A stretch of 38,871 bases of DNA from an uncultured Thiotrichaceae bacterium (GTDB taxonomy: Bacteria > Pseudomonadota > Gammaproteobacteria > Thiotrichales > Thiotrichaceae): the NCBI GenBank assembly GCA_902727985.1, contig CACVAY010000039.1:1-38871 (forward strand). The letters are read 5' to 3'. Under the pieces are notes generated by a model. That model searched no databases. It worked only from the letters and a program-made list of their open reading frames with translations, and was not told the DNA's origin. Position numbers and translations under genes: made by a program. This document shows positions 11,621-36,617 of this stretch, piece after piece; position 1 is the stretch's first letter; each line of letters starts with the position of its first letter.

Positions 11621-12328
11621 ATGAATTCAACATTACTTAAACAAGCTTGGCAAGGTGTTGCTAATTGTAGTCAGTGCAGTATACGTAATTCAGTCTTATT
11701 TGCAGGATTGACAGAGCAGGATTTTGCACAAATACACAAACCAATCGATCAGTTTCAGATAAAAAAGGGCGCTAAGATTTATAGTATCGGAGACGATGCA
11801 AGCAGTATGTTTACGATTCGAAGTGGTTTGGTAAAGCTAGTTCAATACCTCCCCGATGGGACAAAAAAAATTGTTAGATTGTTGGGCACCGCAGATGTTA
11901 TGGGATTGGAAGCTGTTTTCAATTCAAATTATAGACATGATGCTATCGCATTACATGACACTGAAATATGTCGTTATCCTGGTAATGCGGCGAAAGAACT
12001 TTCAAAAACCAATCCTACACTTCACCATGAACTCATGTATCGCTGGGAGTGTGCATTAGACGAGGCTGATAAGTGGGCAACTGAATTCTCCACAGGCTCC
12101 TCCAAACAACGGGTTTCCAGATTGTTTTTAAAGCTAGTCAAAGAGGATCATCCTGCGAATACTTGTACGCTTTTTAGTCGTGATGATCTTGGTGCCATTT
12201 TAGGGCTGACCACTGAAACGGCTAGTCGAGCGATTGCAGATTTTAAACGCCAAGGGGTCATTGTCGAATTATCTGCTAATACCTTTACTTGTGATATCGT
12301 AAAGCTTAAACAGCTAGCCTTTGAATAA
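11621..12328 (+). CDS. Crp/Fnr-family transcription regulator
   Basis: The 235 residues comprise an N-terminal Cys pair (Cys16-x2-Cys19), a cyclic-nucleotide-like beta-roll (about 35-130), a dimer helix and a C-terminal winged helix (about 175-225). Cys117 aligns with the fourth cluster cysteine of E. coli FNR (Cys122), but the third cluster cysteine is missing (Val25 in its place), so only three of four iron-sulfur ligands are present. The recognition helix LTTETASRAI keeps the Glu-x2-Ser-Arg residues that read TTGA in FNR. It is convergent with the oxidase operon and is a good candidate regulator of the FNR-like dyads at 20904-20946. Confidence 0.9.
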   Translation: MNSTLLKQAWQGVANCSQCSIRNSVLFAGLTEQDFAQIHKPIDQFQIKKGAKIYSIGDDASSMFTIRSGLVKLVQYLPDGTKKIVRLLGTADVMGLEAVFNSNYRHDAIALHDTEICRYPGNAAKELSKTNPTLHHELMYRWECALDEADKWATEFSTGSSKQRVSRLFLKLVKEDHPANTCTLFSRDDLGAILGLTTETASRAIADFKRQGVIVELSANTFTCDIVKLKQLAFE

Positions 12329-12397: not shown

Positions 12398-13432
12398 CTA
12401 CAGACGTCTAATGTGATGTGTGGCTAATAAAATCAGCGTCAACAATATTAATGCCCCCGCTTGATGACTGGAAGCCAAAGCGACGGGCACGTGAAGTAGT
12501 AGTGTCGAAATACCTAAAGAGACCTGCACGAGTAGCATGGCAAGCATAAGATGTAACACAACTTTTAGTTGAGCTGGAGGCTTCCTGCGCATAGCTTTGA
12601 TATAAAAAATAATAACAGCTAGAAATAAAAGGGTGGCTAGAACACGGTGATCAAATTGTACCGTAGTGATATTTTCAAAGAAATTTAACCATACTGGTTG
12701 AATCGTGAAAAGCCCGTCGGGAATCCATTTTCCGTCCATTAGCGGAAATGTGTTATACGTGTGGCCTGCTTTAAGCCCTGCTACAAAACCACCCGACAAG
12801 AGTACGATAAAAGTGAAAATGCCTAGAAAGGAAGCGTATCGTTTCAGTCCTCCCGCATTAAAGGTTTTGGTGGATGGCGTTTTTTGTTCGTAAAACAAAT
12901 CCAGAGCTATCCACAAGATATAAGCATAGACAAATACGGCTAGGCCAAGATGTGCAACCAGGCGATATTGACTCACATGCGGGTTATCCACTAAACCACT
13001 TTTTACCATGTACCAACCGAGTAAACCTTGTAAGCCACCCAAGATAAACATGGCAATCAACTTGGGCTTTAACGATGATTTCACCCATCCTTTGATAAAG
13101 AAAAAGACCATTGGGAAGAAGAAGAGAATACCGATAAATCGTCCTAAAAGACGATGCGAATATTCAAACCAGAATATGAATTGGAAGCCACTCAGGGTCA
13201 TATCAGGGTTCTTGATTTTATATTCCGGATATTGCTGATACAGCTGAAAAGCCTCAAGCCATTCAGCGTGAGTCATCGGTGGAATGACCCCCATGATGGG
13301 AGCCCACTCCACCATGGATAAGCCAGAGCCAGTCAGGCGAGTTGCACCACCAAGCACCACCATAAAATAAATAGTGGCGCAGCAAATAAACAGCCAGATG
13401 GCAATGATTCGATTGTTGTTTGACGATGTCAT
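12398..13432 (-). CDS. ctaA: Heme A synthase (COX15/CtaA)
   Basis: CtaA/COX15 oxidises heme O to heme A in the inner membrane. At 344 residues with about eight membrane helices it is full length. Four conserved histidines are present: His93 (EYSHRLLGR), His161 (RLVAHLGL), His262 (QFDHRVLA) and His323 (SSHQAGA). The long first loop with WAPIMGVIPP and NPDMTLSGFQFIFWFEY places it in the COX15-like class without the Bacillus loop cysteines. It is the last gene of the oxidase operon. Together with CyoE it predicts that the oxidase contains heme A. Confidence 0.95.
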   Translation of the reverse strand: MTSSNNNRIIAIWLFICCATIYFMVVLGGATRLTGSGLSMVEWAPIMGVIPPMTHAEWLEAFQLYQQYPEYKIKNPDMTLSGFQFIFWFEYSHRLLGRFIGILFFFPMVFFFIKGWVKSSLKPKLIAMFILGGLQGLLGWYMVKSGLVDNPHVSQYRLVAHLGLAVFVYAYILWIALDLFYEQKTPSTKTFNAGGLKRYASFLGIFTFIVLLSGGFVAGLKAGHTYNTFPLMDGKWIPDGLFTIQPVWLNFFENITTVQFDHRVLATLLFLAVIIFYIKAMRRKPPAQLKVVLHLMLAMLLVQVSLGISTLLLHVPVALASSHQAGALILLTLILLATHHIRRL

Positions 13433-15177: not shown

Positions 15178-17649
15178 TCAGAGTTCACTGTTTCTGAGTC
15201 TCAGCGAATTAGAAATAACAATAAAAGAGCTGAGTGACATCCCTATTGCTGCGCCCCATGGTGGAATCCACCCCATCACTGCGAAAGGGACGGCCAAAAA
15301 ATTATAGGCGGCTGCCCAGCTCAAGTTCTGAATAATAATGCGGCGCGTTTTTTGAGATAATGTGCGAAGCTTTGGAATGACATTAATAGGCTTACCCATA
15401 ATGATAAAGTCGCTATTAATCTGAGCAAGATCTGTTGCACTGGTAAATGAAATAGAGACATCTGCAGCCGCCAATGTTGGCGCATCATTAATGCCATCAC
15501 CGACCATCACTATATGATGGCCTTGTGCTTGTTGTTGCTGTATCCAAGCGAGTTTATCTTGGGGCTGCATATGCCCATAGTATTCTGTGATACCGAGTTT
15601 TTTAGCGACTTTGGAAACGCTATCGGGGTGATCGCCACTCAGAATGGCAATGTTTCTGACTCCCTGTGCTTTCAGCGCTTCTATCATTGATTGTCCGCCT
15701 GCTCTTAATGGGTCATGGAGTATAAAGACACCTTGTAGTTGCTGGTTCCTAGAGAGGCCTATCACAATCCCCGTTTCTTGGCGGGCTTGATGGATCAGGT
15801 CTTTTAGCGGTGGTTTCAATGAAGACTCATCGGTACAGAAAGATAACTTGCCAATCTGCCATGGTTGTCCATCAATCTCGCCAGCGATACCCGAGCCTGG
15901 GTGGTTTTTTAGCTCGTCTACCAAAAATGCTGGTTCGTTACCGTTTTTGAATGCATGAGCAATAGGATGTTCTGATAACCATTCCAGGGAGGAGGCTATT
16001 TGCTGTAGTTGGGCTTCGTTAAATTCCGAGTCATTGTAAACAAGGGTTTTTGTTAGTGTAGGTTGTCCCTCTGTTAAGGTTCCTGTTTTATCAAACACTA
16101 CTGTGTCACTCTGTGACAAGCCCTCAATCATTGACATTTTGATGGGTAAGACGCCCATTTTGGCAAATAAGCCTGAACTTAGGGCAAGTGCTACCGGGGT
16201 TGCCAAGGCTAATGCACAGGGACAGGTGACGATTAATACTGAAACAGTAATCGGTAAGGCCATTTCTGGATCGTTAACGAGCCAATATATGGCTGTCAGT
16301 GAGGCGATGATTAGAATCGCCAGAACGAACCACTTGGCAACTATTTCAGCCATCAGGCTGTAGTGGGTTTTAGATTCAAGGCCCCTTTCCAGCAGGGCAT
16401 GAATATCGGTTAAGGTCGATTCCATGTAGGTGCGTGTGACTTCCATGACGACGGGTTGTTCAATATTACAACTTCCACTCACCAAGTTAGCGCCACTGGA
16501 GTAGGTAACGGGCATCATTTCCCCCGTTAGCAGTGATTCATCAAAACTACTGTTTCCTTCTACCAAACAGCCATCTACTGGTACGGTTTCACCAGGGTTG
16601 ATAAGTACGTGATCCCCTAGTGCTAATTCTGTAATTAATACGGTTTCTAAATCGTTTTTCTGCCCTTTGCTTGTTAAGCGCTGGCTGGTTTTTGGGATTA
16701 CTTTGAGTAAGCGGTCTAGTGATGTAGCAGCTAGAAGGCGCCCTTTAAATTCATAATAACGTGCTGCCAGCATAAAGAAGATAAACATGGCAATGGAATC
16801 ATAATAAACATCATGAGCTTGTTGCACGGTTGCGGCGACACTGCCGATATAGGCTGTGGTTAAACCAATGACAATGGGTAGATCCATTCCCAAGTGGCGA
16901 TTTTTTAAGTCTCTCCATGCAGAAACATAAAATTCAGAACCTGAGTAAACCAGCATAATGGAAACAAGAATAAAGTCTGTCCAGCGTCCTAGGATTTCCC
17001 ACAATGCCAGGTTTCCCTGTGCATCTACACCGCCCATCCAGTAACCCGCAGTGGCACGCGCCATCACTTCCATGCCCAGGAGTCCTGAAAAGAGCAGGCG
17101 TGTAAATCCTTTACGTTTTTGTTCCTCTATCAGCTTTTCACGTTGGGTTGGGTCAAAGGGGTGCGCTTTATAGCCGACGGAGGCAATGGCTTGGAGAATA
17201 TCAGATAGTTGTATGCGTTGTGGATCCCAACACACTCTTGCCTGATGGCTGGTATAGTCCATATTGACGCTTAGGACACCCTCTGTACTTCTTAACTGTT
17301 GTTCATTAAGCCAGACGCAAGCCGCACAACGAATATCATCCAGGATTAAAAAGGCTTCTTTGACGCCATCACTTTGTTGGCGTACGAAGGTTTTTTGTAC
17401 GTCCGGATTATCATAAACCAGTAACTCATCAAGAAAGTCGGGGAGGGCGGCAGGTTTAGCATTATCATCCAGCGCTTCCCGATAACGGTAATAATCCTCA
17501 TTTCCCGTTTCGACAATCGTTTTAGCGACCGCTAGGCAACCAAAACAGCAAAAATGTCGGTCTGACCCAAGAACGGGCGTGGTCAGTTTGCTGTTTTTGG
17601 GGTTTTCAAGGCCGCAGTGGTAGCAGGAATCGTTAGGTTTCTTGGTAAT
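15178..17649 (-). CDS. fixI: FixI/CcoI-type Cu(+)-exporting P-type ATPase, no canonical start codon
   Basis: This P1B ATPase would export copper for oxidase assembly. The catalytic part has TGEMMPV, TCPCALALATP, DKTGT, SEHPIAHAF and GDGINDAP. An ATG at 17262 cuts off conserved sequence. Upstream in the same frame are the metal site RCAACVWL and the N-terminal Cys-rich module CYHCGL with CCFGC, as in FixI proteins. The frame is open back to the TAG of the preceding cytochrome gene (17668-17670) but holds no ATG, GTG or TTG before CYHCGL. The ATT at 17647-17649 is the least unlikely start, giving 823 residues, a normal FixI length. A sequencing error or TAG readthrough is possible. Confidence 0.85.
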   Translation of the reverse strand: MTKKPNDSCYHCGLENPKNSKLTTPVLGSDRHFCCFGCLAVAKTIVETGNEDYYRYREALDDNAKPAALPDFLDELLVYDNPDVQKTFVRQQSDGVKEAFLILDDIRCAACVWLNEQQLRSTEGVLSVNMDYTSHQARVCWDPQRIQLSDILQAIASVGYKAHPFDPTQREKLIEEQKRKGFTRLLFSGLLGMEVMARATAGYWMGGVDAQGNLALWEILGRWTDFILVSIMLVYSGSEFYVSAWRDLKNRHLGMDLPIVIGLTTAYIGSVAATVQQAHDVYYDSIAMFIFFMLAARYYEFKGRLLAATSLDRLLKVIPKTSQRLTSKGQKNDLETVLITELALGDHVLINPGETVPVDGCLVEGNSSFDESLLTGEMMPVTYSSGANLVSGSCNIEQPVVMEVTRTYMESTLTDIHALLERGLESKTHYSLMAEIVAKWFVLAILIIASLTAIYWLVNDPEMALPITVSVLIVTCPCALALATPVALALSSGLFAKMGVLPIKMSMIEGLSQSDTVVFDKTGTLTEGQPTLTKTLVYNDSEFNEAQLQQIASSLEWLSEHPIAHAFKNGNEPAFLVDELKNHPGSGIAGEIDGQPWQIGKLSFCTDESSLKPPLKDLIHQARQETGIVIGLSRNQQLQGVFILHDPLRAGGQSMIEALKAQGVRNIAILSGDHPDSVSKVAKKLGITEYYGHMQPQDKLAWIQQQQAQGHHIVMVGDGINDAPTLAAADVSISFTSATDLAQINSDFIIMGKPINVIPKLRTLSQKTRRIIIQNLSWAAAYNFLAVPFAVMGWIPPWGAAIGMSLSSFIVISNSLRLRNSEL

Positions 17650-17667: not shown

Positions 17668-18390
17668 CTAATTTCCATTTTCAGCGAAATATTGAGCCAT
17701 GGCATTAATTTCCTCATCCGTTAAGACTTTAGCGATATGCCGCATACGTGCATAAATATCATTATGGCGAGTGCCATCCTTGTACTCTTGCATGGTCTTA
17801 CGGAAATATTCTGCGCGTTGACCTTCTAGTGCAGGAGTATCTCTTTCGACGCCCTTAGCCCCTTTCTCATGACACAAAAGGCAAGGTGGTAACATACGTT
17901 TGCCATCCCCTTCTGTCAGTAAAGGGAGTATGCTTTCTACCTCTTCTTTGGTCGCCAATTTGGCTGCTGAAGGAGGAGGTAAAGGAAGGCTCTCATAATA
18001 AACTGCGATATCTGCCATTTGTTGTTCGGTCATGGTTTTTGCTAATCGAACCATCAAGGTCGCTGTCTCAGTACCCACCCGCTTTTCGTCTCGATAATCA
18101 ATAAGCATCTTATAGGTATAATTCGCTTTTTGACCAGCCATGTTAGGCCAGTTCTTTGCGGTGGCGATACCTTCTTTACCATGACAGGCACTGCACATCA
18201 TTTCTGTATTGATTTGCTTGCCGCGTTCCGGATCCCCATTTTTGACAAAAAGAATTTGTGGCACATCCCAGGCAATGTTGGAAGACGGGCCAGAGTGCTT
18301 ATTCGCATTATTCTCACTGGCGAACACGCTTCCTGCTACCAGTCCAGATAATGCTAAGCCAAGGAGTGTTTTCGTGAATATGTTCTTCAT
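17668..18390 (-). CDS. Diheme cytochrome c (c4-like)
   Basis: A periplasmic diheme cytochrome that probably feeds electrons to the adjacent ba3 oxidase. From the ATG at 18388-18390, preceded by GGGGGT, the protein has 240 residues. A signal peptide runs to about residue 25 (SVFAS), and hemes attach at CSACH (66-70) and CLLCH (170-174). Candidate axial Met residues occur in LMVRLAKTM and ARMRHIAK. The start lies 1 bp after the coxA stop; a longer start at 18456 would overlap coxA and spoil the signal peptide. Its TAG stop is in frame with the following ATPase gene. Confidence 0.93.
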   Translation of the reverse strand: MKNIFTKTLLGLALSGLVAGSVFASENNANKHSGPSSNIAWDVPQILFVKNGDPERGKQINTEMMCSACHGKEGIATAKNWPNMAGQKANYTYKMLIDYRDEKRVGTETATLMVRLAKTMTEQQMADIAVYYESLPLPPPSAAKLATKEEVESILPLLTEGDGKRMLPPCLLCHEKGAKGVERDTPALEGQRAEYFRKTMQEYKDGTRHNDIYARMRHIAKVLTDEEINAMAQYFAENGN

Positions 18391-18391
18391 A

Positions 18392-20071
18392 TTAATACCC
18401 CCACGCTGGTGATTCTGGCGTACCGATAAACCAAAACTGCAAAACAGGATAACCATAACTTGCCACTAAATAAATCAACATGGCCCAATTCCAGAAGGAC
18501 AAACTGTTAAGTAGGTGAGGGACTTGTAAAGGGGGGTGAATAGCTTCTGAATAACTGACCACCCGTTCAGAGTCACTGACCATTGGCTGACGCGATGTCA
18601 TAAACAAGATGTAGACGAAAAGTAAACCTGATACGAGCAGTGTTAAGGCACCAAAATTCATAATCAGCATGGAGAAATCCCATGATCTCACGAGTTCTTC
18701 GGATTGTTGATAGGCTTGGAGCGTATCGACACGTCTCGGTTGTCCGATAATGCCCAGGTAATGCCACGGTATTGTCGTAATCCACATACCAACAAACCAA
18801 AGCCATAACTGAGTAATGACCAGCTTATTGGAGAATAACTGATGCCCTGTGATTTTAGGCCACAGCCAATAAGCTGCCGCGAAGTACATAATAATGGTTG
18901 TGCCACCATAAATCAGATGGAAGTGTCCTGGTACCCACTGCGTGTTATGCACTAAGGCATTTAAGGAATACGAGGCATTGATGACGCCACCCCAGCCACC
19001 CACGGTTAACATCAATAATGAAAAGACAGATGCAAGAACAACCGGGTTTTGATAATCCAGTGTTTTAAGCCAGCCAAAAAGTCCCTTGCCCCCTCGTAAA
19101 CGCCCTGCTATTTCAAGCGTGGCGATAATCGTAAAGCCGGTAATGAGAGTGGGTACGGCGACCATAAAGGTTCCGAACATGTGCAATAGTTTCCAGCCCG
19201 CTGCTACGATTGGATCCATATACAAATGGTGCATGCCGATTGGTACTGAGAAGATAAATAGCATGACAAAGGCTACACGGGCAATTTCATCGCTGAATAG
19301 TTTTCCGCCAGCCTCTTTAGGCAAAATGGCGTACATCACTAAATAACAGGGAAATAACCAGAAATAAACAATGGCGTGTAAGGTTTCAGAGAACAGAACT
19401 CGTGAAAGCCCTGGATCCAAGCTATCTGCCCATCCCATAGAGACAGGAATGAGTTGGAATAACACCTCCGAAGCAACGCCTATAGAAGTCCAGAGCCACA
19501 GCATGGCATTTAACACCGTACCATACATGACCAGAGGAACTGGTTTGCCCGGATTTGCCCTCTTCCATGTGACGGTTGAAACAACCATATCAATACACCA
19601 GAACCAGGATCCAACCACCAATAAGGCGGCACCTATGTAGAAACTCGGGTGAGCGATTTCAGGTGGGTAAAAGGTATAAAGAACAGAGGCGTGTCCAGTT
19701 AGCAAAGGGATGGCAGCAAGTACTACACCAATTGCCGCTATCCAGAAGCCTGCCCAGGCAAAAGTAGGAGACCACAGCTTTTGTTTCAGGCTATGTACGG
19801 CCGTATGATAGCCGAACCCCATAATAAAAAAGGTACTCAACACATACGCCATCAAAACCCCGTGGGTAGATGTTGAGGCATAGTAGACGGCAGCATTTTC
19901 AATAGCGGGAACCATGCCGCTGCGCTCAAGTACCTGATAAGCACCCATTGGCAAGGCTAATGCAAAGGCAGCAAAAGCAATAAAAAAATTCCAGAATGCC
20001 AGTTTGTTGGTCGTGTTCGTTGACTCTTCGGATAACGCAATATCGCGAGACGAAAGTGTGGATTCTGTCAT
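18392..20071 (-). CDS. cbaA: ba3-type (B-family) heme-copper oxidase subunit I
   Basis: The catalytic subunit that reduces O2 in the inner membrane. It has 559 residues and about 13 helices. All core ligands are seen: His70 (STHGVLMAY) and His385 for the low-spin heme, His383 for the high-spin heme, and His232, His281 and His282 for CuB, with Tyr236 placed for the His-Tyr cross-link. The family segments IAGRLRGGKGLFGW and HNTQWVPGHFHL match Thermus CbaA closely. The CuB loop is odd: the usual GHPxVY is LHAIVY here. It overlaps the subunit II stop by one base (TAATG). Confidence 0.94.
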   Translation of the reverse strand: MTESTLSSRDIALSEESTNTTNKLAFWNFFIAFAAFALALPMGAYQVLERSGMVPAIENAAVYYASTSTHGVLMAYVLSTFFIMGFGYHTAVHSLKQKLWSPTFAWAGFWIAAIGVVLAAIPLLTGHASVLYTFYPPEIAHPSFYIGAALLVVGSWFWCIDMVVSTVTWKRANPGKPVPLVMYGTVLNAMLWLWTSIGVASEVLFQLIPVSMGWADSLDPGLSRVLFSETLHAIVYFWLFPCYLVMYAILPKEAGGKLFSDEIARVAFVMLFIFSVPIGMHHLYMDPIVAAGWKLLHMFGTFMVAVPTLITGFTIIATLEIAGRLRGGKGLFGWLKTLDYQNPVVLASVFSLLMLTVGGWGGVINASYSLNALVHNTQWVPGHFHLIYGGTTIIMYFAAAYWLWPKITGHQLFSNKLVITQLWLWFVGMWITTIPWHYLGIIGQPRRVDTLQAYQQSEELVRSWDFSMLIMNFGALTLLVSGLLFVYILFMTSRQPMVSDSERVVSYSEAIHPPLQVPHLLNSLSFWNWAMLIYLVASYGYPVLQFWFIGTPESPAWGY

Positions 20072-20601
20072 TAGTTCGCCCTCGCGATTAGTTTAAATTC
20101 ATCTTTTGGAACTATTTTTATCATGCCGTACATATAGGCATGGGCTAGCCCACAATACTCTTGACAGATCACAGGAAAGTCTCCCAGTTGAGTAAAACTG
20201 GATGTGACTTCAGCGATATACCCAGGGACGATCATGGTGTTCATATTACTAAATGGAATTAATACACCGTGAAGTACATCAAATGAGGCCATTCTGAATT
20301 TTACGGGGGTATCAACAGGAACTTCGACATGTTGTGGATAAAAACCATATCGGGCTGCTACTATCGTGACAACGATGGTGCCATCAGGGTCTTGTCGAAC
20401 ACCTAGTTTGTCTTCAGCAAACTCACCCCCTCCTATACCGGAATCAAGATGTAAACGCGCAGAATCAATAACTTCTACATTACTCGGGGGATGAACGTCT
20501 TTTACTGCTGCAAAATACAGGATAATTAACCATGCTAGAAGAACCATGGCTGCGCTCATGATTATCCATTTTTTCTCAAGCGGATCTATATGAATTGCCA
20601 T
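20071..20601 (-). CDS. cbaB: ba3-type cytochrome c oxidase subunit II (CuA)
   Basis: Subunit II accepts electrons from cytochrome c at the dinuclear CuA site. The 176 residues comprise one N-terminal membrane helix (about 12-32) and a periplasmic cupredoxin domain. The CuA ligands are complete: His111, then Cys146-x-Glu148-x-Cys150-x3-His154-x2-Met157 in CQEYCGLAHAYM. The short form with one helix is typical of ba3-type oxidases. It lies 12 bp after the 50-residue gene and overlaps subunit I by one base. It is the expected client of the SCO and PCuAC proteins. Confidence 0.95.
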   Translation of the reverse strand: MAIHIDPLEKKWIIMSAAMVLLAWLIILYFAAVKDVHPPSNVEVIDSARLHLDSGIGGGEFAEDKLGVRQDPDGTIVVTIVAARYGFYPQHVEVPVDTPVKFRMASFDVLHGVLIPFSNMNTMIVPGYIAEVTSSFTQLGDFPVICQEYCGLAHAYMYGMIKIVPKDEFKLIARAN

Positions 20602-20613
20602 AGTTTTCTCTCT

Positions 20614-20766
20614 TTATTTGACTGGGCCACGGGCGACGAAAAGCTCGAACCAAAAGTAGAGAAAACCCAGGGTGAACAATACCCCATAAATGAACATGAT
20701 CACCCATGTGCCTTTGGGTGAACTTTCAAGAATTTTTTTCTGTTCTTCTTCAGGCAGTTCTTTCAT
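20614..20766 (-). CDS. Small membrane subunit (IIa-like) of ba3-type oxidase, 50 residues
   Basis: This short gene reads MKELPEEEQKKILESS, then one membrane helix (about residues 20-44, WVIMFIYGVL and following) and ends ARGPVK. The acidic, charged N-terminus before a single aromatic-rich helix matches the small IIa subunit (CbaD) of ba3 oxidases in size and placement, although sequence similarity in such peptides is weak. It is first in the operon, 12 bp before subunit II. The start ATG is at 20764-20766. Confidence 0.75.
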   Translation of the reverse strand: MKELPEEEQKKILESSPKGTWVIMFIYGVLFTLGFLYFWFELFVARGPVK

Positions 20767-20903
20767 ATTATTTCCTGTATGACTAAAAAGTTGGCAGGGT
20801 GTAAAACCACTATGTATCGAGGTGTATTCTGTAGTTATTTAATGTGAATACTTGAGGTGTCTAGTGACACATATCGCTAATATGCTAGATTTGAGATTTA
20901 TGC

Positions 20904-20946
20904 TCAATGACAATTGTCAATCAATGCCATTGACAATTGTCATTGA
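20904..20946. promoter_or_regulatory. Double FNR-like operator, perfect 18-bp inverted repeat
   Basis: TCAATGACAATTGTCAAT (20904-20921) is repeated as its exact reverse complement at 20929-20946 across a 7-bp gap. Each arm contains the perfect palindrome TGACAATTGTCA (20908-20919 and 20931-20942), so two dyads lie 23 bp apart centre to centre. TTGAC-N4-GTCAA has the geometry of the FNR site TTGAT-N4-ATCAA. If the dyads act at -41.5, starts would fall near 20872 (minus) and 20978 (plus), allowing control of both divergent operons. The Crp/Fnr protein at 11621-12328 is the obvious local candidate. Confidence 0.7.
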
Positions 20947-21143
20947 AGGCTCGTATTTGTGGGTGCTATCTTAAAATGTCATGATGTATGTCAGAAGTCT
21001 GGTATTTACTGTCCTGTCTATGAATAGCAGCAAAATACTTAAGTCGTTTCTTATATTATGAAATGCTAAATATTTTTTATTTCAGTACATTATGAGCCTA
21101 ATTTACATTTTATTTTCTTGTTTCCTATGAATAGTTAGCGGGA

Positions 21144-21172
21144 TTGACTGGGCGATAGTTGTTACGTTTATT
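21144..21172 (+). promoter_or_regulatory. Candidate proximal promoter of fccA
   Basis: TTGACT (21144-21149), a 17-bp spacer and TTTATT (21167-21172). A start near 21179 would leave a leader of about 25 nt before fccA. Confidence 0.4.
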
Positions 21173-21203
21173 TTCGTTTTTATGTCACGCAAAGGATTAA
21201 CTA

Positions 21204-21662
21204 ATGAAGAAGTTTTTGCTTTCTTTTTTACTTATCATAAGTAGTTTGGTTTTTTTTAATGTTCAAGCTTCTGATGACATTATTGGGGGGTTAACACTTG
21301 AAGAGAATTTCCAGCTTGCAAAAAAGTTTCCAATGCCTTCTCCATGGCTGTTAGCTGCCCAATGTTCGGCCTGTCATGGTACGTTGGGTGCTGAATATAA
21401 CGAAATTATTCCACCGCTTGCAGGAATGAATAAAGAAGAATTTATTGAAAGAATGCAGGAATACAAAACGGGCGAAGCCAATGATTTTATTGTAATGGGT
21501 ATTATCACTCAACCCATCACTGATGAGGAAATTATTGCAATGGCAGAGTTCTTTGCTGAACAAAAGCCCGTGCCTTGGAGTAAAGAGAAAGGGCATAAAG
21601 ATGTCGTTGTTCCTGAGTGGGCGAAAATGGAAGTGAATAAACATGATAAAGGAGTTGAGTAA
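21204..21662 (+). CDS. fccA: Monoheme cytochrome c, probable FccA subunit of sulfide dehydrogenase
   Basis: A periplasmic class I cytochrome c of 152 residues. A signal peptide runs to about Ala22, heme attaches at CSACH (54-58), and Met98 (FIVMGI) is the probable sixth ligand. Helical segments such as MAEFFAEQKP resemble half of a c4-type cytochrome. It is directly upstream of the flavoprotein FccB (5-bp gap), the usual arrangement of flavocytochrome c sulfide dehydrogenase, whose heme subunit takes electrons from the flavin. Some FccA proteins are diheme; this one is monoheme. Confidence 0.88.
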   Translation: MKKFLLSFLLIISSLVFFNVQASDDIIGGLTLEENFQLAKKFPMPSPWLLAAQCSACHGTLGAEYNEIIPPLAGMNKEEFIERMQEYKTGEANDFIVMGIITQPITDEEIIAMAEFFAEQKPVPWSKEKGHKDVVVPEWAKMEVNKHDKGVE

Positions 21663-21667
21663 TTGAT

Positions 21668-22990
21668 ATGAATAACCAGAATCATAATAAAAAAGATGGT
21701 CTTTCTCGACGTCAAATGCTCAAGCTACTGGGAGCAAGTGCGCTTACATATGGCCTGCTGGGTGCATCAACGAAGGCTTTTTCTAACACTGCACCGCATA
21801 TCGTTATTGTGGGTGGTGGGATAGGGGGTGCAGCTGCCGCAAAGTATCTTCGATTATTGAATGCAGAGGTAAAAATCACGGTTATCGAGCCTAACTCTCA
21901 ATATATTTTTTGTCCGGGAAGTAATGAAGTTATTCCTGGCTGGGTCACCTTAGAAGACCTGATGGTTACCTATACCACATTAAAAACGCGGTATAAGGTA
22001 AATGTCATACACGATAAGGCGACAACAATTGATTACGATAAAAAGCAGGTAAAACTGGAGAAAGGTGATGTGCTTAGTTACCACAAACTCATTGTGTCTC
22101 CGGGGCCTACACATGGTTATCATGCAATAGAGGGGTTCAGCAAGGAGCTTGCAGATGGCGATTTTCCTGCTGCGTACGATGCTGGCAGGCAAACCATGAA
22201 TCTACGTAATCAGATTCTTGCGATGAAAAAAGGCGGTACAGTGATCATCGCTCCGCCTGAAAATGACTATCGCTGTCCACCTGCACCCTATGAGCGAGCA
22301 TCATTTGTTGCTGCGATGTTAAAAGAAAACAACCCGACGGGTAAAATACTTATTCTTGACGCCAAGGATGAATTTGTTCTTTCCAATAATTACATACCTT
22401 ATTGGGAGAAAACATTTGGCTATGGAACAGACAACAGCATGATTGAATGGGTACAGAAAAAAAAGGGTGGTGAAGTGGTAAAATTAGATGCCAGTAATCA
22501 TGCGGTCGTCACCGCCGATGGCCAAACCCACAAAGGAGATGTTATCAACATCATACCGCCAGAGGCTGCGGGGCAGTTTGCATTGAAAAATGATCTGGCT
22601 GATGACCGTTGGTGTCCTGTTGAATTCCAGGATTTCAGCTCAACAAGACACAAAGATGTTTATGTCATTGGTGACAGTGTTGATGGTTCGCCGATGCCCA
22701 AGACGGGTTATATCGCCAGTAACCAAGCGCGTGTTGTTGTGCAGGCAATTAATGATGAGTTACACGGTAGAGAGGTGGGAACACCGTTTATTGTCAACGA
22801 CTGTGTTGCGATGGCAGGGCATGATTATGGAATGGCGCTATCCACAACCTTTCGCTACGCAGGCAAAGGAGAGCGCCTAAAAGATTTGTATTATGTACAG
22901 GGGCTTGAGACAAATCCCGCGAAACAGCTTATTCGTCAGCAAGTGGCTGAGAACTGGCAGCGGACTTTCCGAAAAGATATCTTTGAATAA
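21668..22990 (+). CDS. fccB: Flavocytochrome c sulfide dehydrogenase, flavoprotein subunit
   Basis: FccB oxidises sulfide in the periplasm and passes electrons to FccA. The 440 residues begin with a twin-arginine signal (SRRQMLKLLGAS, near 13-24), then the FAD loop VIVGGGIGGAAAAKY (46-60). Comparison with the Allochromatium enzyme places Cys82 (FCPGSNEVI) at the covalent flavin position, and Cys203 (RCPPAPYERA) with Cys379 (NDCVAM) at the redox disulfide; all three are present. Tat export suggests it folds with FAD in the cytoplasm. It is followed by cyoE. Confidence 0.93.
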   Translation: MNNQNHNKKDGLSRRQMLKLLGASALTYGLLGASTKAFSNTAPHIVIVGGGIGGAAAAKYLRLLNAEVKITVIEPNSQYIFCPGSNEVIPGWVTLEDLMVTYTTLKTRYKVNVIHDKATTIDYDKKQVKLEKGDVLSYHKLIVSPGPTHGYHAIEGFSKELADGDFPAAYDAGRQTMNLRNQILAMKKGGTVIIAPPENDYRCPPAPYERASFVAAMLKENNPTGKILILDAKDEFVLSNNYIPYWEKTFGYGTDNSMIEWVQKKKGGEVVKLDASNHAVVTADGQTHKGDVINIIPPEAAGQFALKNDLADDRWCPVEFQDFSSTRHKDVYVIGDSVDGSPMPKTGYIASNQARVVVQAINDELHGREVGTPFIVNDCVAMAGHDYGMALSTTFRYAGKGERLKDLYYVQGLETNPAKQLIRQQVAENWQRTFRKDIFE

Positions 22991-23014
22991 GGCTTGCGAA
23001 GTGTATTATTCTCA

Positions 23015-23941
23015 ATGAAGACCCACGTAATTAATAGTGTGTACGCTGATACTCGATCTGCAGATTACATCGCAAAAGTAAAAGCGGTTTACGAGCTTGG
23101 AAAACCCAAAGTGGTCATGCTTATCATGTTTACCGCTGTTGTTGGAATGATCCTTGCACTTCCTTATCATCCCTATGATCTTCCCTGGATCAAAATATTC
23201 TGGAGCACGCTAGGGATTGGTCTTCTGTCGTCAGCTGGCGCGGTGATCAATCATATTGTTGATCGCCACGCAGATGCCAAGATGTTTCGTACCCTCAATC
23301 GGCCTTTACCTAAGGGGCGATTAAACAAAGTCACGGCTTTATTCGTTGCTTTTACTTGGACGACACTGGGGCTTATCATCCTGCTTTGGCAAGCAAATCT
23401 CTTGGTGACAATACTCACTCTTATGGCGATGATTGGTTACGCTATTATTTATACGATGTTTCTAAAGCGCACAACTCCACAAAATATTGTTTGGGGTGGA
23501 GCGGCTGGAGCTGCGCCGCCTTTATTAGGCTGGGTGGCGATGACAGGGGAACTGAGTCTTGAACCTGTGGTTTTATTTCTAATTATTTTTTTCTGGACCC
23601 CCGCACATTTTTGGCCGCTCGCTATTCAACGAGTAGAAGAATATCGAAAAGCTAAATTTCCAATGCTGCCTGTAACTCACGGTATTGCTTACACCAAAAA
23701 ACAAATTGTTTTATATTCCGGACTACTCTTTGCAACAACTCTCTTACCCTTAGTGATTGGGATGAGTGGTGTGGCATATTTTATTTCAGCACTAGGCTTA
23801 AATGCTATGTTTGGGTTTTATGTCTATCGTTTATATATGAGTGCTGAAAATGATGGTGCGATGCGTTTATTTGCCTACTCAATTATCTATTTGATGTTGC
23901 TGTTTGCCTTCCTGTTAGCAGATCATTTTTTATATCTCTAG
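23015..23941 (+). CDS. cyoE: Protoheme IX farnesyltransferase (heme O synthase)
   Basis: CyoE farnesylates heme B to heme O in the inner membrane, the step before CtaA makes heme A. The 308 residues have about nine helices and the prenyl-diphosphate motif NHIVDRHADAKMFRT near residue 79; YTMFLKRTTPQNIVWGG and WTPAHFWPLAI are family motifs. I prefer the ATG at 23015; an in-frame TTG at 22994 would add seven residues. It follows fccB closely, so it is probably co-transcribed with fccAB, which ties heme A supply to the sulfide-dehydrogenase operon. Confidence 0.95.
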   Translation: MKTHVINSVYADTRSADYIAKVKAVYELGKPKVVMLIMFTAVVGMILALPYHPYDLPWIKIFWSTLGIGLLSSAGAVINHIVDRHADAKMFRTLNRPLPKGRLNKVTALFVAFTWTTLGLIILLWQANLLVTILTLMAMIGYAIIYTMFLKRTTPQNIVWGGAAGAAPPLLGWVAMTGELSLEPVVLFLIIFFWTPAHFWPLAIQRVEEYRKAKFPMLPVTHGIAYTKKQIVLYSGLLFATTLLPLVIGMSGVAYFISALGLNAMFGFYVYRLYMSAENDGAMRLFAYSIIYLMLLFAFLLADHFLYL

Positions 23942-27161: not shown

Positions 27162-27782
27162 TTATGATGCAGGTGGAGTTGTTATGCTCGATTTTTCAGC
27201 AATATACTTGCGAATTACACTGGTGACGCCATTCACTGAAGTAGCATGTGGTAAAAACTCACGTATTTTGCCGTCTGTATCCAAGACAAAGATCAGTGCG
27301 GTATGGTCAATAAGGTAAGCGCTTTCACTATGTTTTTGCGTGATTTTATATGAAGCTCCATAGTTGCCACTAACACGATCTATTTCATCTTTTCCCCCCG
27401 TTAGGCCAATGATATTAGGGTGGAAATACTGGGTATAGGCTTTCAGTTTTTCTGGAGTATCACGTTTAGGATCTACGCTGATAAAGACCCCCTTTGTTTG
27501 GGCTAATTCTTCTTCTGAAAGCTGCTTAAATGCTTCGCTAATTCTTGCTAGAGAGGTTGGGCAAACATCTGGGCAATAGGTGTAGCCAAAAAAAACAAGA
27601 GCTACTTTGCCAGTGAGGTCATGCAAGCTGACATCACCATCCATGCTGTGCAGAGTGAAGTCTCCACCCATGGGTTCGCCGGAGTTCGTTGCTGGTGCTG
27701 TAGGTTTTTTTAGTAATAAATTGCTACTAATAACGCCTAGTAATAAGGTAATAAGCAGAATGGGGATGTATTTATTGTTCAT
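27162..27782 (-). CDS. SCO1/SenC copper-metallochaperone (second copy)
   Basis: The 206 residues carry an N-terminal membrane anchor (about 5-24), then a thioredoxin fold with copper ligands Cys70 and Cys74 (YCPDVC) and His160 (LIDHTALI). It is shorter than, and clearly different from, the SCO at 14440-15153, so it is not a recent duplicate. The start overlaps the stop of the preceding gene by four bases (ATGA). It is the last gene of a three-gene copper cassette. Its client could be a different oxidase, or it could act mainly as a thiol reductase. Confidence 0.95.
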   Translation of the reverse strand: MNNKYIPILLITLLLGVISSNLLLKKPTAPATNSGEPMGGDFTLHSMDGDVSLHDLTGKVALVFFGYTYCPDVCPTSLARISEAFKQLSEEELAQTKGVFISVDPKRDTPEKLKAYTQYFHPNIIGLTGGKDEIDRVSGNYGASYKITQKHSESAYLIDHTALIFVLDTDGKIREFLPHATSVNGVTSVIRKYIAEKSSITTPPAS

Positions 27783-28264
27783 GGTTTTGCAATAGAATTA
27801 GTGGTTTCTAAAGGAAAGTCAGCGACAAAATGTTGACCCTGGGCAGTTGTAAAAATCGCACGTATCTGCCATAACATGGTGCTTTGTGTGCAGATTGGCA
27901 ATATTCCTTCTCCTATGAACTGTTGCGCGGCTGTTTTAGGAATAGGGAACTGCGTATTGCCCATGTCCATATTGATGCCAGTGACTTGAATCGCTAGTTT
28001 TGAAAATACATCATTTGAGGTCTTGATATCAAAACTCAGAGGAATCAGGGCGCTAATTGGCTTGGGTGTAATGTCCAGTGTTATTTCATTGCCATCTGAA
28101 AAGCGTAGGGAGCATGGGGTCGTTTGAAGATGACAGTCAGGTGTTGCGATTTGTATTTCCGCAAAACCAGCTTCTGCTTGCTGATTGAGATATTGCTTGC
28201 CGAATAACCCAACCGTAATTAGGAGTAACGCGCTAACGATGTACCAGAGATGACGTGTTTGCAT
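27779..28264 (-). CDS. Membrane-anchored protein of the copper cassette, unknown family
   Basis: The 161 residues have one N-terminal membrane helix (about 7-22) and a periplasmic domain with three Cys (IATPDCHLQTTPCS and LPICTQSTMLW) and the Met-containing stretch GINMDMGNTQF. This composition, and its position between PCuAC and SCO, suggest copper handling, but I do not recognise the family. It overlaps both neighbours (TAATG with pcuAC, ATGA with sco), so the three proteins are probably made together. Confidence 0.8.
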   Translation of the reverse strand: MQTRHLWYIVSALLLITVGLFGKQYLNQQAEAGFAEIQIATPDCHLQTTPCSLRFSDGNEITLDITPKPISALIPLSFDIKTSNDVFSKLAIQVTGINMDMGNTQFPIPKTAAQQFIGEGILPICTQSTMLWQIRAIFTTAQGQHFVADFPLETTNSIAKP

Positions 28265-28731
28265 TAAGAATGTGGGTTAATTTTTTTAACTTCTGCGGTA
28301 ATGCTGGTTTGACTGCCGTCTTTGAATTGTAAATCAAAAGAGATCTTTTCGCCTACTTGCAGGTCTTTTTTGAGACCAATCAACATGATGTGGTAGCCAC
28401 CTGGTTTTAGTTCAGCTTTACTTTGCTTGGGAATAGTGATTTCTGGAACTTCGCGCATTTTCATCATGCCATCTGCGTGCGTATGTTCGTGTAATTCAAT
28501 TTTTTCACTTACATCACCTTTTGCACTAACCAAGAATCGGTCTTTGTCGCTACTGTTTTGTAAAGTCAGAAACATAGCCGTTACCGCTTGGCCTGGTGGC
28601 ATAGCTCGAATGTAAGGCGCATCAACGGAAATAGCATCAGCAGATTTAGAACCTGTTTGTGCTTTGTCGTCGGAATTACATGCGCTTAATAGAGCAAGAG
28701 AAATGAGGAAAACTTTCGATAGGATATGCAT
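28264..28731 (-). CDS. PCuAC-type periplasmic copper chaperone (second copy)
   Basis: The 155 residues are a predicted lipoprotein (lipobox LLSAC, Cys18) with the complete ligand pattern His81-x10-Met92-x21-His114-x-Met116. The stretch HEHTHADGMMKM adds extra His and Met beside the site, which the first copy lacks. It is first of the pcuAC, unknown, sco cassette and overlaps the next gene by one base. A separate promoter is expected in 28732-28944, but none was convincing. Confidence 0.95.
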   Translation of the reverse strand: MHILSKVFLISLALLSACNSDDKAQTGSKSADAISVDAPYIRAMPPGQAVTAMFLTLQNSSDKDRFLVSAKGDVSEKIELHEHTHADGMMKMREVPEITIPKQSKAELKPGGYHIMLIGLKKDLQVGEKISFDLQFKDGSQTSITAEVKKINPHS

Positions 28732-32381: not shown

Positions 32382-32747
32382 TCATTGTTTGCCCATTGCA
32401 ACCAGCAAACCATTGATACTAGCTCCTTGCTCCATTTCTAGAGATCCATAGTGGATATCACCTTCTATTTGTGCTGAGCTGGCTATGGATAAACGTTTAG
32501 TTGCAAAGATATTTCCAATAATTTTTCCTGTGACGATTACGTAAGGTGCTCGTACTTCACCGGTAATCACGCCGCCTTCTTGCACCATGACTTTGCCATC
32601 GGAGTCAAGTGGTGCGAGTACGTTTCCTGTAATTCTGCCTCGAACTAAAATATCTTGAGAAAAGGAAATATCTCCCATTAATTCAACATCTTGTTCAATT
32701 ATTGAGCGTTTTGTGCCAAGTGATTGGTTTGTTATATTGTCATTCAT
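32382..32747 (-). CDS. Bactofilin
   Basis: Bactofilins are beta-helical proteins that polymerise without nucleotide and scaffold polar or curved-envelope structures. The 121 residues show the central repeat core with regular short beta turns (GDISFSQDILVRGRITGNV, then KVMVQEGGVITGEV, then YVIVTGKIIGNIF). A short disordered N-terminus contains no membrane helix. It is divergent from the GTPase/roadblock/FimV cluster. In Myxococcus, bactofilins work with a small GTPase at the poles, which makes this neighbourhood suggestive; the functional link is inference. Confidence 0.92.
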   Translation of the reverse strand: MNDNITNQSLGTKRSIIEQDVELMGDISFSQDILVRGRITGNVLAPLDSDGKVMVQEGGVITGEVRAPYVIVTGKIIGNIFATKRLSIASSAQIEGDIHYGSLEMEQGASINGLLVAMGKQ

Positions 32748-32950
32748 AAATCATACGGCGCTATATTATGTTTGAATTTAGTGTACGTGGAGAACGGGGT
32801 TGAAGCAATCGCAATAGCATTAACTGAGTTTATTAAAATAATATGTGTAATTATTGTGCATTATGCTACCTTTTATTCTGATATTTGGACACTTTGTAGA
32901 AGGCTCTGTATAGTTATTTTCATTGTTTCAAGTGACGTAAATCAAGTTGC

Positions 32951-32979
32951 TTGAAGATTCTCATGAAAAATTGTTTTAT
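32951..32979 (+). promoter_or_regulatory. Candidate promoter of the GTPase/FimV cluster
   Basis: TTGAAG (32951-32956), a 17-bp spacer and TTTTAT (32974-32979). The -35 box overlaps the palindrome TCAAGTTGCTTGA. A start near 32986 would place the 33017 leader frame about 30 nt into the transcript. Confidence 0.4.
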
Positions 32980-33016
32980 AACAGCGAGATGCTTGTTTAT
33001 GACAAGGAGATGTTCC

Positions 33017-33052
33017 ATGGAATCTGGGTTTCAACAGAATAAGAACAAATAA
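33017..33052 (+). CDS. Possible 11-residue leader peptide
   Basis: ATG at 33017, preceded by AAGGAG at good spacing, encodes MESGFQQNKNK and stops at 33052, ten bases before the ATG of the next gene, in a different frame. It could couple translation of that gene, or mark a frameshifted true N-terminus. Confidence 0.25.
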   Translation: MESGFQQNKNK

Positions 33053-33062
33053 CGACTGGTAT

Positions 33063-33779
33063 ATGATGCGTGAAAAAATGAGTGCTTTAGGGGCGTCTGA
33101 TGCCATGGTTTCAGCGTCTCGGTTACATATGACCTTAGATAAGAGGTTGCGATTGAATGGACATTACGATTCATTAACGGCATGGAGAATGCTGTCTAGG
33201 CATGTTGCTCGACATCCAAATAATTTACGTACGCATGCACAACGGATTTTTTTAGCAGAAGATTCTATGTTGCAACATTGTCTCAAGGGAGCGCTTGTTG
33301 ATCTTTCTCTGTCTTTGAATGGTAAGGGTGAGTATTTCAGTCGCCAGCTCCTCGAAATGGTCAAAGATTCTCTTTCTGATGAAGATTATAGATATTTCAA
33401 AAAATCTTTTAGTGACGATCCTGGTGAGCGTAAAAAGTACCAAAACTGGGTTAATGGCTCCGTAATGGCTAACGGTGCTGATGATGGTCAATTATTGGTC
33501 GAATTTACGCGTGGAGAACAGGAAGCCTTTGTATCCAAACTGGAAGAGGCTCGTTCTTGTATGGAATATGGACAGTTAGATGAGGCTATCAATATTCTGG
33601 AAACAGAAATGCTGAGTACGCCTGGTGATATAGAGATTGAAGCTGAGTTACTAAACCTTTACCAATACATGCGAGATAAAGGGCGTTTTGATAATCTATC
33701 CAATAAGCTGACAGAGAAAGGTGTTGAGTTTTCGGAGGCTTGGCATGCTACAGCAGTAGAAGCTAAAGAGTGGATCTAA
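33063..33779 (+). CDS. FimV-like TPR protein, first gene of the GTPase cluster
   Basis: The 238 residues have no signal or membrane helix, so the protein is probably cytoplasmic. The C-terminal part (about 165-235) has TPR-like helices; LEEARSCMEYGQLDEAINILETEMLS, given here only as a region near 160-185, resembles the EADVYLAYGRYEQAEELL repeat in the cytoplasmic half of FimV. The N-terminal half has Arg-rich helices (AWRMLSRHVARHP). The gene lacks a good ribosome-binding site of its own. It overlaps the GTG of the next frame and starts the cluster, so it may be a soluble partner of the FimV-like protein at 37068. Confidence 0.65.
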   Translation: MMREKMSALGASDAMVSASRLHMTLDKRLRLNGHYDSLTAWRMLSRHVARHPNNLRTHAQRIFLAEDSMLQHCLKGALVDLSLSLNGKGEYFSRQLLEMVKDSLSDEDYRYFKKSFSDDPGERKKYQNWVNGSVMANGADDGQLLVEFTRGEQEAFVSKLEEARSCMEYGQLDEAINILETEMLSTPGDIEIEAELLNLYQYMRDKGRFDNLSNKLTEKGVEFSEAWHATAVEAKEWI

Positions 33780-33793
33780 ATAATAACAATAAA

Positions 33794-35410
33794 ATGATAA
33801 TGTCAAATCAGCAATCACCATTAAAACTATATCTCTTGGATATTAATTCACAGAATAAGGCTATTTTGGAATTCTTCGTTGCGGGTGCGGGAAGAGAGTT
33901 CTACACGTTGGTGAATAATATCGATCACGCAGAGGTTTTCATCACAGATTTCGATTTTCCTGACGCTCGACAAAATTGGGAAGAGTTAAATCTTGGAGGT
34001 AAACCATCATTAATACTTGCGATGACCGACCCAGAAGTATCAGAGGGTGAGTGGCTGAGTAAGCCGATGACATCGGATGCATTGATCGATGCAGCCAAAA
34101 AGTATATGCCTCGTGTGAACGAGCTTCGTCAGTCAGATAAGGACGTGAATCAATCAATATCAAATAAAAATGTCACATCACAATCCGCACCACTCTCTCA
34201 TCATCGTATTGGTAGTCGAGTAGCATCATCCTCTCCGCCTTTTGGTGCGTCTAGAGCTATGCCTGATGTTGCAACTAGTACTCCAGCTACTCCAGCCACT
34301 GTTTTACCTCAGGAGATGGTTGGCTTGCAGGGGCGACCACTTGTTAATGTGGATGAAGGCGGGGCAATTACTTTAGAGCGTCCGCTAGAAAAAACTGATA
34401 GTCCATCAGAGGTTTTTGAAGAAGCGAAAGAAACTGCCACGGAAGCGCTTGCTGTCGCAGATAACTCCGTATCTGAGAGTGTTTCTCTCTTGAAAGGTGA
34501 CACAGGTTCTGCAGAGTTATCAAAAGCTAATGCGTTTGCATCACTCAATAAAAAAGAGATTCCAACTACATTTGAGAGTGTTGAAGGTGATCAAGAGGTG
34601 TCGCTAACAGAAGAGGAGATTCTCGATGAGCAGCGGCGTCATTCACCTGTCTATACTAGAGACAAACTTTCACCTGAACAGGCGCGAGTGCGTTGGCAAG
34701 AACTATGCGGTTCACGTGCGAGTTACATGCGCTCTGAATTGAAAGATATCAGGAATACTGGATATAACCGTGAAAGTCATTTGCAGGGAAGTTTGATAGC
34801 GGCTTTGCGTTTATCAAAACAAACACAACAAGTGGTTCAGATGAAATATGAACCTTATAAGTTTTTTGTGATTTATGAGGATAGTCTAATCGTTAGCCCT
34901 CTTGATCCGAAAGCACCTGAGTTTACCATGCTATGTTCAAATGCAGTGCGTCCAGGTCAGATTAATCTGCATATTTTAGATTCTGTGCAATCTAAAGAGA
35001 TGTTAGATAGTCTTGAGAAAAATAGAGAGTTCGCATTTGAGCTTGAGTCATTTATCTGGACGACTTGTTTAGTCAGTTCGCAGGGGCGGTTGCCAACGGA
35101 TTTTGAAAGTGAGAATCAGTATTTACTCAAGCATTGGCCAAATTTTACCAGAATGGAAAATTTTCCGTTTGCGATGAGAATTGCAGCTCTTTGGCATTAC
35201 GAGCCAAATAGGTTGTGTGATGTGGCGGAAAAATTAGAAATCCCTCAGCGTTATATTATTGCCTTTTTTAATGCCGCTATGGGCCTGTCCTTATTTGAGC
35301 AAGACCTTGATAAGGTACAAAGTAAATTGATAGAACCACCGAAGAAAAAACGTAGTGGAATTATAGCCCGGTTATTTAGCCGTTTGGCTGGAGGGATGAG
35401 TAACACATGA
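33794..35410 (+). CDS. Receiver-like domain protein with C-terminal winged helix
   Basis: No named family. From the ATG at 33794 it has 538 residues; GTG 33770 and ATG 33800 are alternatives. Residues 1-100 look like a response-regulator receiver: LYLLDINSQNK, then VFITDFDFPD at the phospho-acceptor strand and LSKPMTSDALIDAAK at the Lys switch. The first acidic pair is reduced to one Asp, so it may be degenerate. A Ser/Thr/Ala-rich linker (about 105-270) precedes a conserved C-terminal part with a winged-helix-like FAMRIAALWHYEPNRL and a basic tail. Its stop overlaps the GTPase start (ATGA), which implies coupled synthesis. Confidence 0.75.
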   Translation: MIMSNQQSPLKLYLLDINSQNKAILEFFVAGAGREFYTLVNNIDHAEVFITDFDFPDARQNWEELNLGGKPSLILAMTDPEVSEGEWLSKPMTSDALIDAAKKYMPRVNELRQSDKDVNQSISNKNVTSQSAPLSHHRIGSRVASSSPPFGASRAMPDVATSTPATPATVLPQEMVGLQGRPLVNVDEGGAITLERPLEKTDSPSEVFEEAKETATEALAVADNSVSESVSLLKGDTGSAELSKANAFASLNKKEIPTTFESVEGDQEVSLTEEEILDEQRRHSPVYTRDKLSPEQARVRWQELCGSRASYMRSELKDIRNTGYNRESHLQGSLIAALRLSKQTQQVVQMKYEPYKFFVIYEDSLIVSPLDPKAPEFTMLCSNAVRPGQINLHILDSVQSKEMLDSLEKNREFAFELESFIWTTCLVSSQGRLPTDFESENQYLLKHWPNFTRMENFPFAMRIAALWHYEPNRLCDVAEKLEIPQRYIIAFFNAAMGLSLFEQDLDKVQSKLIEPPKKKRSGIIARLFSRLAGGMSNT

Positions 35411-36587: not shown

Positions 36588-36617
36588 TTAAAAACCCTGT
36601 TCGAAGGAGAAAAGTAT

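Follow-up and report, generated by a model that had tools for sequence, protein, structure and literature searches.

The genes for a sulfide-oxidising enzyme and for a terminal oxidase lie back to back in the genome of an uncultured Thiotrichaceae bacterium, with a long inverted repeat between them. We asked whether this repeat could be a shared control site through which one regulator switches both operons. The DNA analysed, hereafter the window, is a stretch of 38,871 nucleotides.

Divergent operons for a ba3-type oxidase and a sulfide dehydrogenase

The best solved relatives of the two oxidase subunits were Thermus-type ba3 chains such as 1ehk, and the flavin subunit encoded on the other side of the repeat matched 1fcd_A. 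These matches bear out the original prediction, which had named the pair as a ba3-type oxidase (now matched to 4n4y_A and the 1ehk chains) and a flavocytochrome c sulfide dehydrogenase. The genes are as follows.

11621-12328, plus strand: Crp/Fnr-family regulator, candidate activator (PF00027, PF13545 and PF00325 above cut-off); faces ctaA at the far end of the cluster
12398-13432, minus strand: ctaA (PF02628)
15178-17262, minus strand: copper-type P-type ATPase (TIGR01511 above cut-off)
17668-18456, minus strand: two-domain cytochrome c
18392-20071, minus strand: ba3-type oxidase subunit I (4n4y_A and 1ehk_A, E about 1e-105)
20071-20601, minus strand: ba3-type oxidase subunit II (best solved relatives include 1ehk_B)
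20614-20766, minus strand: ORF of 50 codons that probably opens the ba3 operon (similar small ORFs precede cox2 in relatives, by eye)
21204-21662, plus strand: fccA-like cytochrome c (PF00034, weak)
21668-22990, plus strand: fccB, flavin subunit of flavocytochrome c sulfide dehydrogenase (1fcd_A, E 2.8e-91; PF21706 above cut-off, PF09242 under it)
22994-23941, plus strand: cyoE, heme o synthase (TIGR01473 above cut-off)

By eye, the smaller minus-strand genes of the ba3 cluster looked Sco-like and copper-chaperone-like. The 50-codon ORF, which falls under the cut-offs of the ORF lists, had no Pfam match; if it is the first gene of the ba3 operon, the intergenic gap runs from 20767 to 21203. 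The assembly gave six FccB matches at E up to 0.001, some with about 40% identity over nearly the full length, so the genome holds several fcc-like genes, the fccB of the window among them.

A perfect 18-bp inverted repeat between the operons

Within the gap, the 12-mer TGACAATTGTCA occurs twice, at 20908-20919 and 20931-20942, with 23 bp from start to start, and the arms that hold the two copies are 100% complementary over 18 bp. Both the spacing of the palindromes and the perfect inverted repeat were therefore as originally claimed.

20904-20946, no strand: whole dyad, with 18-bp perfect arms at 20904-20921 and 20929-20946 and a 7-nt gap
20907-20920, minus strand: Crp/Fnr-type site 1, TTGACAATTGTCAT, putatively serving the ba3 operon
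20930-20943, plus strand: Crp/Fnr-type site 2, TTGACAATTGTCAT, putatively serving fccAB-cyoE

From the 435 bp of 20769-21203 we generated 2000 first-order Markov sequences; with a repeat gap of up to 10 allowed, none of them contained a perfect inverted repeat longer than 11 bp, and the 18-bp repeat is thus not a product of chance. The dyad had been described as centred between the operons; its centre, at 20925, is off the middle of the gap. The proposed fit to the Crp/Fnr family held in part, in that the halves and the 4-bp gap are of Crp/Fnr type, but each 14-mer is one mismatch off TTGAC-N4-GTCAA. An Rfam scan of the dyad returned just three miRNA models, with scores far under their thresholds.

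A genome search for the same dyad, proposed earlier as a check, found exact TGACAATTGTCA at only two places in the 3,538,353-base (3.54 Mb) assembly, both within the dyad, which rules out a genome-wide set of the exact palindrome. With one mismatch allowed there were seven further places, nine in total against seven for the reversed control, so the relaxed palindrome does not form such a set either. TTGACN4GTCAA with one mismatch gave 118 hits where its reversed control gave 91, a background too high for use, and was dropped.

Conservation of the dyad in relatives

An FccB scan across 84,980 species, each represented by a single genome, and sensitive to close relatives only, gave three loci, two in Cocleimonas MAGs (83% and 86% identity) and one in a Lysobacterales MAG (66%). 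The Cocleimonas loci, L040 (genome G017, contig C131) and L041 (G411, contig C2), have the same divergent ba3/fcc layout as the window. The Lysobacterales locus (L042) carries the same genes rearranged, with fccAB and the oxidase operon convergent, and its contig starts right before fccA.

In the three-way alignment of the window, L040 and L041, identical columns made up 29 of 43 in the dyad, 8 of 9 in a block around a candidate minus-strand -10 element, 10 of 12 in the corresponding plus-strand block, and 114 of 371 in the rest. The best-conserved 40-base stretch of the intergenic alignment begins at 20908. The outer half-site, ATGAC in the window, is TTGCG in both relatives, and the perfect 12-bp palindrome is therefore not the conserved unit; the genome holds no further exact copy of it. 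What is conserved is TTGAY-AATT-(CGCAA or GTCAT), present twice and pointing outward. Among the six sites of the three genomes, the inner half is TTGAC in five and TTGAT in one, and the central AATT is retained in all six. The arms are separated by 7 nt in the window and by 8 nt in both relatives.

Thirteen of the 17 arm pairs are invariant, three have changed on both sides, and one is broken (TTGAC to TTGAT in L041). This covariation was reached in 19 of 500 shuffles and, coming from three related sequences, amounts to modest evidence. The broken pair leaves a tolerated half-site and would suit a protein site better than a hairpin.

A dyad profile, built from these three genomes and matching them by construction, was run with strict filters against 63 genomes of the order. 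It gave E below 1e-6 in the same three, all of one family, and 0.009 for the next best match. At the distant ba3/fcc loci (L042, L075-L077 and L088-L091), no match to the dyad model was found at E up to 5.

Candidate promoters at class II distance

The two conserved blocks beside the dyad contain the following candidate promoter elements.

20879-20884, minus strand: candidate -10 CATATT of the ba3 operon (predicted start near 20872; block identical in 8/9 columns; the TTG of site 1 lies 36 nt away in 3/3 genomes)
20964-20972, plus strand: candidate extended -10 TGcTATCTT of fccAB-cyoE (predicted start near 20979; block identical in 10/12 columns; the TTG of site 2 lies 37 nt away in 3/3 genomes)

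The plus-strand hexamers of the three genomes are TATCTT, TATCTT and TATGTT, with TG one base upstream in every case. Each dyad had been placed about 41.5 bp from a candidate start of its operon. When starts were predicted 7 nt beyond the -10 hexamers, the site centres lay at about -41.5 on the minus strand, as claimed, and at about -42.5 on the plus strand, both values depending on candidate -10 elements. The distance from site to conserved -10 candidate fits class II in all six sites, with starts as predicted. With the two site centres so placed relative to their respective candidate promoters, each dimer would serve one operon.

The -10 candidates agree with TATAAT at four of six positions, and neither promoter has a consensus -35, suggesting that both should need an activator. 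A consensus promoter scan of 20500-21300 found one promoter-like site, at neither -10 candidate; such a miss is expected for activator-dependent promoters, yet it is also a caution for the predicted starts. The predicted fcc leader (20980-21203) is about 225 nt long, and the leaders of the relatives are of similar length and poorly conserved.

Comparison with known sites and systems

In E. coli the class II position of FNR is -41.5 (PMC4886647). As far as the available text of that source goes, the dyad sites resemble class II Crp/Fnr promoters: they are 14-bp two-fold sites with TTGA-type half-sites, would lie about 41.5 bp before a candidate start, and are accompanied by no consensus -35. 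They differ in that the window and its relatives have two sites back to back, 23-24 bp apart, between divergent operons. Whereas the E. coli FNR-type site has TTGAT twice, the halves of the dyad are TTGAC with ATGAC or TTGCG, and none of the dyad sites has the two TTGAT halves of the canonical Fnr/Dnr box TTGATN4ATCAA.

The HcpR box is given as wyTTGACnnnnGTCAArw and the NnrR box as ctTTGcgnnnncgCAAag, with the consensus forms TTGAC-N4-GTCAA and TTGCG-N4-CGCAA (PMC1274295). Both kinds of half, TTGAC and TTGCG, occur in the dyad loci. Unlike those boxes, however, the dyad sites have mixed halves (one of each in the relatives, TTGAC with ATGAC in the window), and their targets are genes of sulfide and oxygen respiration. 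None of them has both halves TTGCG, as in an NnrR box, or both TTGAC, as in an HcpR box. The sequences reported as bound by R. sphaeroides FnrL include TTGAC, TTGAT, ATGAC and TTGCG halves (PMC2908626), and TTGCG sites also appear in PMC6710368. RedB was considered as a match and dropped, its reported motif being non-palindromic (PMC9603854).

A parallel for the gene pair is Methylacidiphilum fumariolicum SolV, in which SQR and a ba3-type oxidase, proposed to be sulfide-insensitive, are reported to rise together with H2S (PMC10205796). There, as here, a sulfide-oxidising enzyme is paired with a ba3-type oxidase; but SolV belongs to another phylum and uses SQR rather than Fcc, and the text available for SolV names no shared control site. 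As an analogy, the co-induction in SolV would make co-control of Fcc and ba3 in the Thiotrichaceae genome sensible. The open-access literature searched, as far as its text was available, yielded no description of a common control site for fcc and ba3 genes. To our knowledge, none of the sulfide-response regulators SqrR/BigR, CstR and FisR is a Crp/Fnr protein.

The neighbouring Crp-family protein

The protein encoded at 11621-12328 belongs to the Crp/Fnr family, with a cNMP-binding fold and a Crp-type HTH. It did not reach the NCBIfam cut-offs of the named regulators Fnr, FnrL, FixK, FtrB and CRP (best 74.7 bits, against 228 for Fnr). Its Cys16, Cys19 and Cys117 align with FNR cysteines and are retained in 14 of 14 aligned orthologues, while the remaining N-terminal FNR cysteine is replaced by Val. 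We therefore rejected a canonical FNR ([4Fe-4S] oxygen sensor) identity, for which the four ligand cysteines are not all present.

In the recognition helix, Thr occupies the position of CRP Arg180, and residue 181 is Glu. A published helix code predicts the reading of TTGA for a helix of this Thr180/Glu181 type (PMC1274295), and by this code the protein should read TTGA. The code does not single it out: the same genome has eight Crp HTH matches above cut-off, and four paralogues (L046, L047, L049 and L052) have Glu181 without Arg180, which places them in the same helix class and makes them predicted TTGA readers too.

Full-length crp orthologues (at least 58% identity) occur in 15 of the 63 genomes of the order, or in 17 if two with partial genes only are included. 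Most carriers lack the dyad, so this Crp subfamily must have other targets. The crp gene faces ctaA at the end of the cluster both in the window and in G017; the contig of L041 stops within ctaA. The tree joins the G017 crp to the window copy with a support of 0.994 and separates it from the four aligned copies that belong to the genus of G017, a pattern that would fit transfer of the gene together with the cluster. In G411, the genome of L041 (84% complete), the only crp copy found is of the genus type, and the sole match at 1e-20 was a window-type Crp. The set used for cysteines, helix and tree left out the G033 orthologue (L204) and the incomplete or disrupted genes in G410, G012 and G405; the G405 gene concerned is its second copy (C48:545-1247), a window-type crp broken by stop codons. 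Autoregulation of crp in the window was discarded, as the region upstream of the gene has no box. We regard the 11621-12328 Crp as a plausible regulator of the dyad.

Similar boxes elsewhere in the genomes

A TTGAY-N4-CGCAA box precedes orthologous SLAC1 genes (69% identity) in two genomes: TTGATAGTTCGCAA in the Thiotrichaceae genome itself (G000), and TTGATAGATCGCAATG in G004, where a crp orthologue follows about 110 bp further on the same strand. For the form TTGAYNNNNCGCAA, of this TTGAY-N4-CGCAA type, chance predicts 0.0014 occurrences in 300 bp. A count over other stretches totalling 255,489 bases, with L080 and L110 (which carry the two SLAC1 boxes) set aside, found it at no place but the four dyad sites of L040 and L041. 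At the G004 gene, a spacing of 36 nt separates the TTG of the box from TATAGT, which corresponds to -41.5; at the SLAC1 box of G000, no good -10 was found at class II distance. Among the 16 crp-orthologue loci scanned, the exact 16-mer box was present in one.

Allowing one mismatch, TTGAYAATTSKCAW gave 36 matches against 23 for the control in G000 and 33 against 21 in G017. We mapped 27 loci of the former and 28 of the latter, excluding sites deep within ORFs, and compared the flanking genes by BLASTP; only the fcc/ba3 sites precede orthologous genes in both genomes. Nine additional TTGAYAATTSKCAW-type places were inspected without orthologue comparison. Fnr/Dnr-like boxes precede genes for a di-haem cytochrome c peroxidase (L092, G000 C13:45746), a bacterial globin (L127, G017 C39:24280) and a 4Fe-4S ferredoxin (L100, G000 C19:2786), suggesting that other Crp/Fnr regulation using similar boxes is likely in these two genomes. 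Two membrane proteins that look related (L128:240-1439 and L171:10801-12006; 400 and 402 aa) have no Pfam match, and the G017 gene of this pair is preceded, at a distance of some 70 bp, by a perfect TTGATAATTATCAA box.

A proposed mechanism and its alternatives

The sites, their symmetry, conservation and spacing, and the linkage to crp are there in the DNA itself. The reading of them that we favour, and hold to be fairly probable, is that two class II Crp/Fnr sites co-activate the divergent operons, with the neighbouring Crp as the likeliest activator. The dyad would offer two back-to-back sites, 23 bp apart, to dimers of one Crp/Fnr-family activator. In class II fashion, the dimer on the minus-strand site would bring RNA polymerase to the ba3 oxidase genes and the one on the plus-strand site would do so for fccAB-cyoE, so that a single signal would increase both sulfide oxidation and the oxygen-reducing system that partners it. 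The 11621-12328 Crp may also act on the SLAC1 anion-channel gene elsewhere in the genome. We infer the binding, activation rather than repression, the identity of the regulator and the signal. The class II architecture is of a known kind; what appears new is the pairing of sulfide and oxidase genes under a Crp, and this pair of targets and the uncharacterised three-cysteine regulator give the site its interest. The central AATT, conserved in 6/6 sites, is not required by a Crp/Fnr site and speaks against the class II reading. Further points against the proposal are the presence of the dyad in three genomes only, the 16-mer box in 1/16 loci and the missing box before the crp of the window. To these add the imperfect -10 candidates passed over by the consensus scan, the genus-type crp of G411, the many crp carriers that lack the dyad, and the SLAC1 box of G000, which has no good -10 at the class II distance.

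The same class II layout might instead be bound by another Crp/Fnr paralogue (of the L046/L149 type, or Fnr/Dnr-like), a lesser possibility that nevertheless has to be taken seriously. The eight Crp HTH matches and the four paralogues with the shared helix class leave room for it, and an L046-type gene is present in G000 and G017, with none seen in G001 or G004; the TTGAY-N4-RTCAA-like sites before the cytochrome c peroxidase, globin and ferredoxin genes would suit other Fnr/Dnr-type regulators. G411, however, has the dyad, yet only the window-type Crp matched there at 1e-20 (in a genome 84% complete), and the linkage of crp and the SLAC1-crp box favour the neighbouring Crp.

It is improbable, in our judgement, that the dyad is the operator of a TetR, MarR or GntR type repressor that blocks both promoters from the middle. 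Such an operator would account for the high symmetry, still seen in the TTGNNAATTNNCAA of the relatives, and for the conserved AATT, but it would make the constant class II distance to both -10 elements a coincidence, and no regulator of those families was noticed beside the cluster among the window ORFs scanned, which were part of the total. Least credible of all is that the repeat is an RNA hairpin or a DNA cruciform, or that its arms are kept alike by template-switch mutation. The 18-bp perfect arms and the three arm pairs changed on both sides would agree with this, and template switching at quasi-palindromes could also yield like changes in both arms. Against it, the one broken pair, in L041, is a change tolerated by Crp/Fnr sites, the Rfam miRNA matches are far under threshold, and the conservation of both -10 blocks at a fixed distance would be left unexplained. 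The dyad lies upstream of both candidate -10 elements and so would be in neither transcript.

If the site works as a pair of class II activator sites, one activator would couple a sulfide-oxidising enzyme to an oxidase type reported as sulfide-resistant (PMC10205796, in the text available), and this, if true, would help explain how such bacteria continue to respire in sulfide. The dyad also offers a reporter-testable target for the uncharacterised three-cysteine Crp subfamily of 17/63 genomes of the order (two with partial genes only). A wider scheme, which we put forward as speculative and rather doubtful, is that this subfamily senses sulfide, persulfide or redox state and, by means of two dimers 23-24 bp apart, switches on a single regulon made up of Fcc, the ba3 oxidase and the SLAC1-type channel for anions, possibly sulfite. 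The two neighbouring dimers would then function jointly: each would be the class II activator at one promoter and would assist at the opposite promoter from further upstream. The crp-oxidase-fcc block itself would pass from genus to genus as a self-regulated module.

Other features of the window

A second copper-handling pair, SCO1/SenC and PCu(A)C, lies on the minus strand at 27162-28731, past secA and separate from the ba3 cluster. At 32382-36980, beside neighbours without a Pfam match, a bactofilin, a small Ras-like GTPase and a Roadblock/LC7 protein are encoded together, a group that we take to resemble polarity modules.
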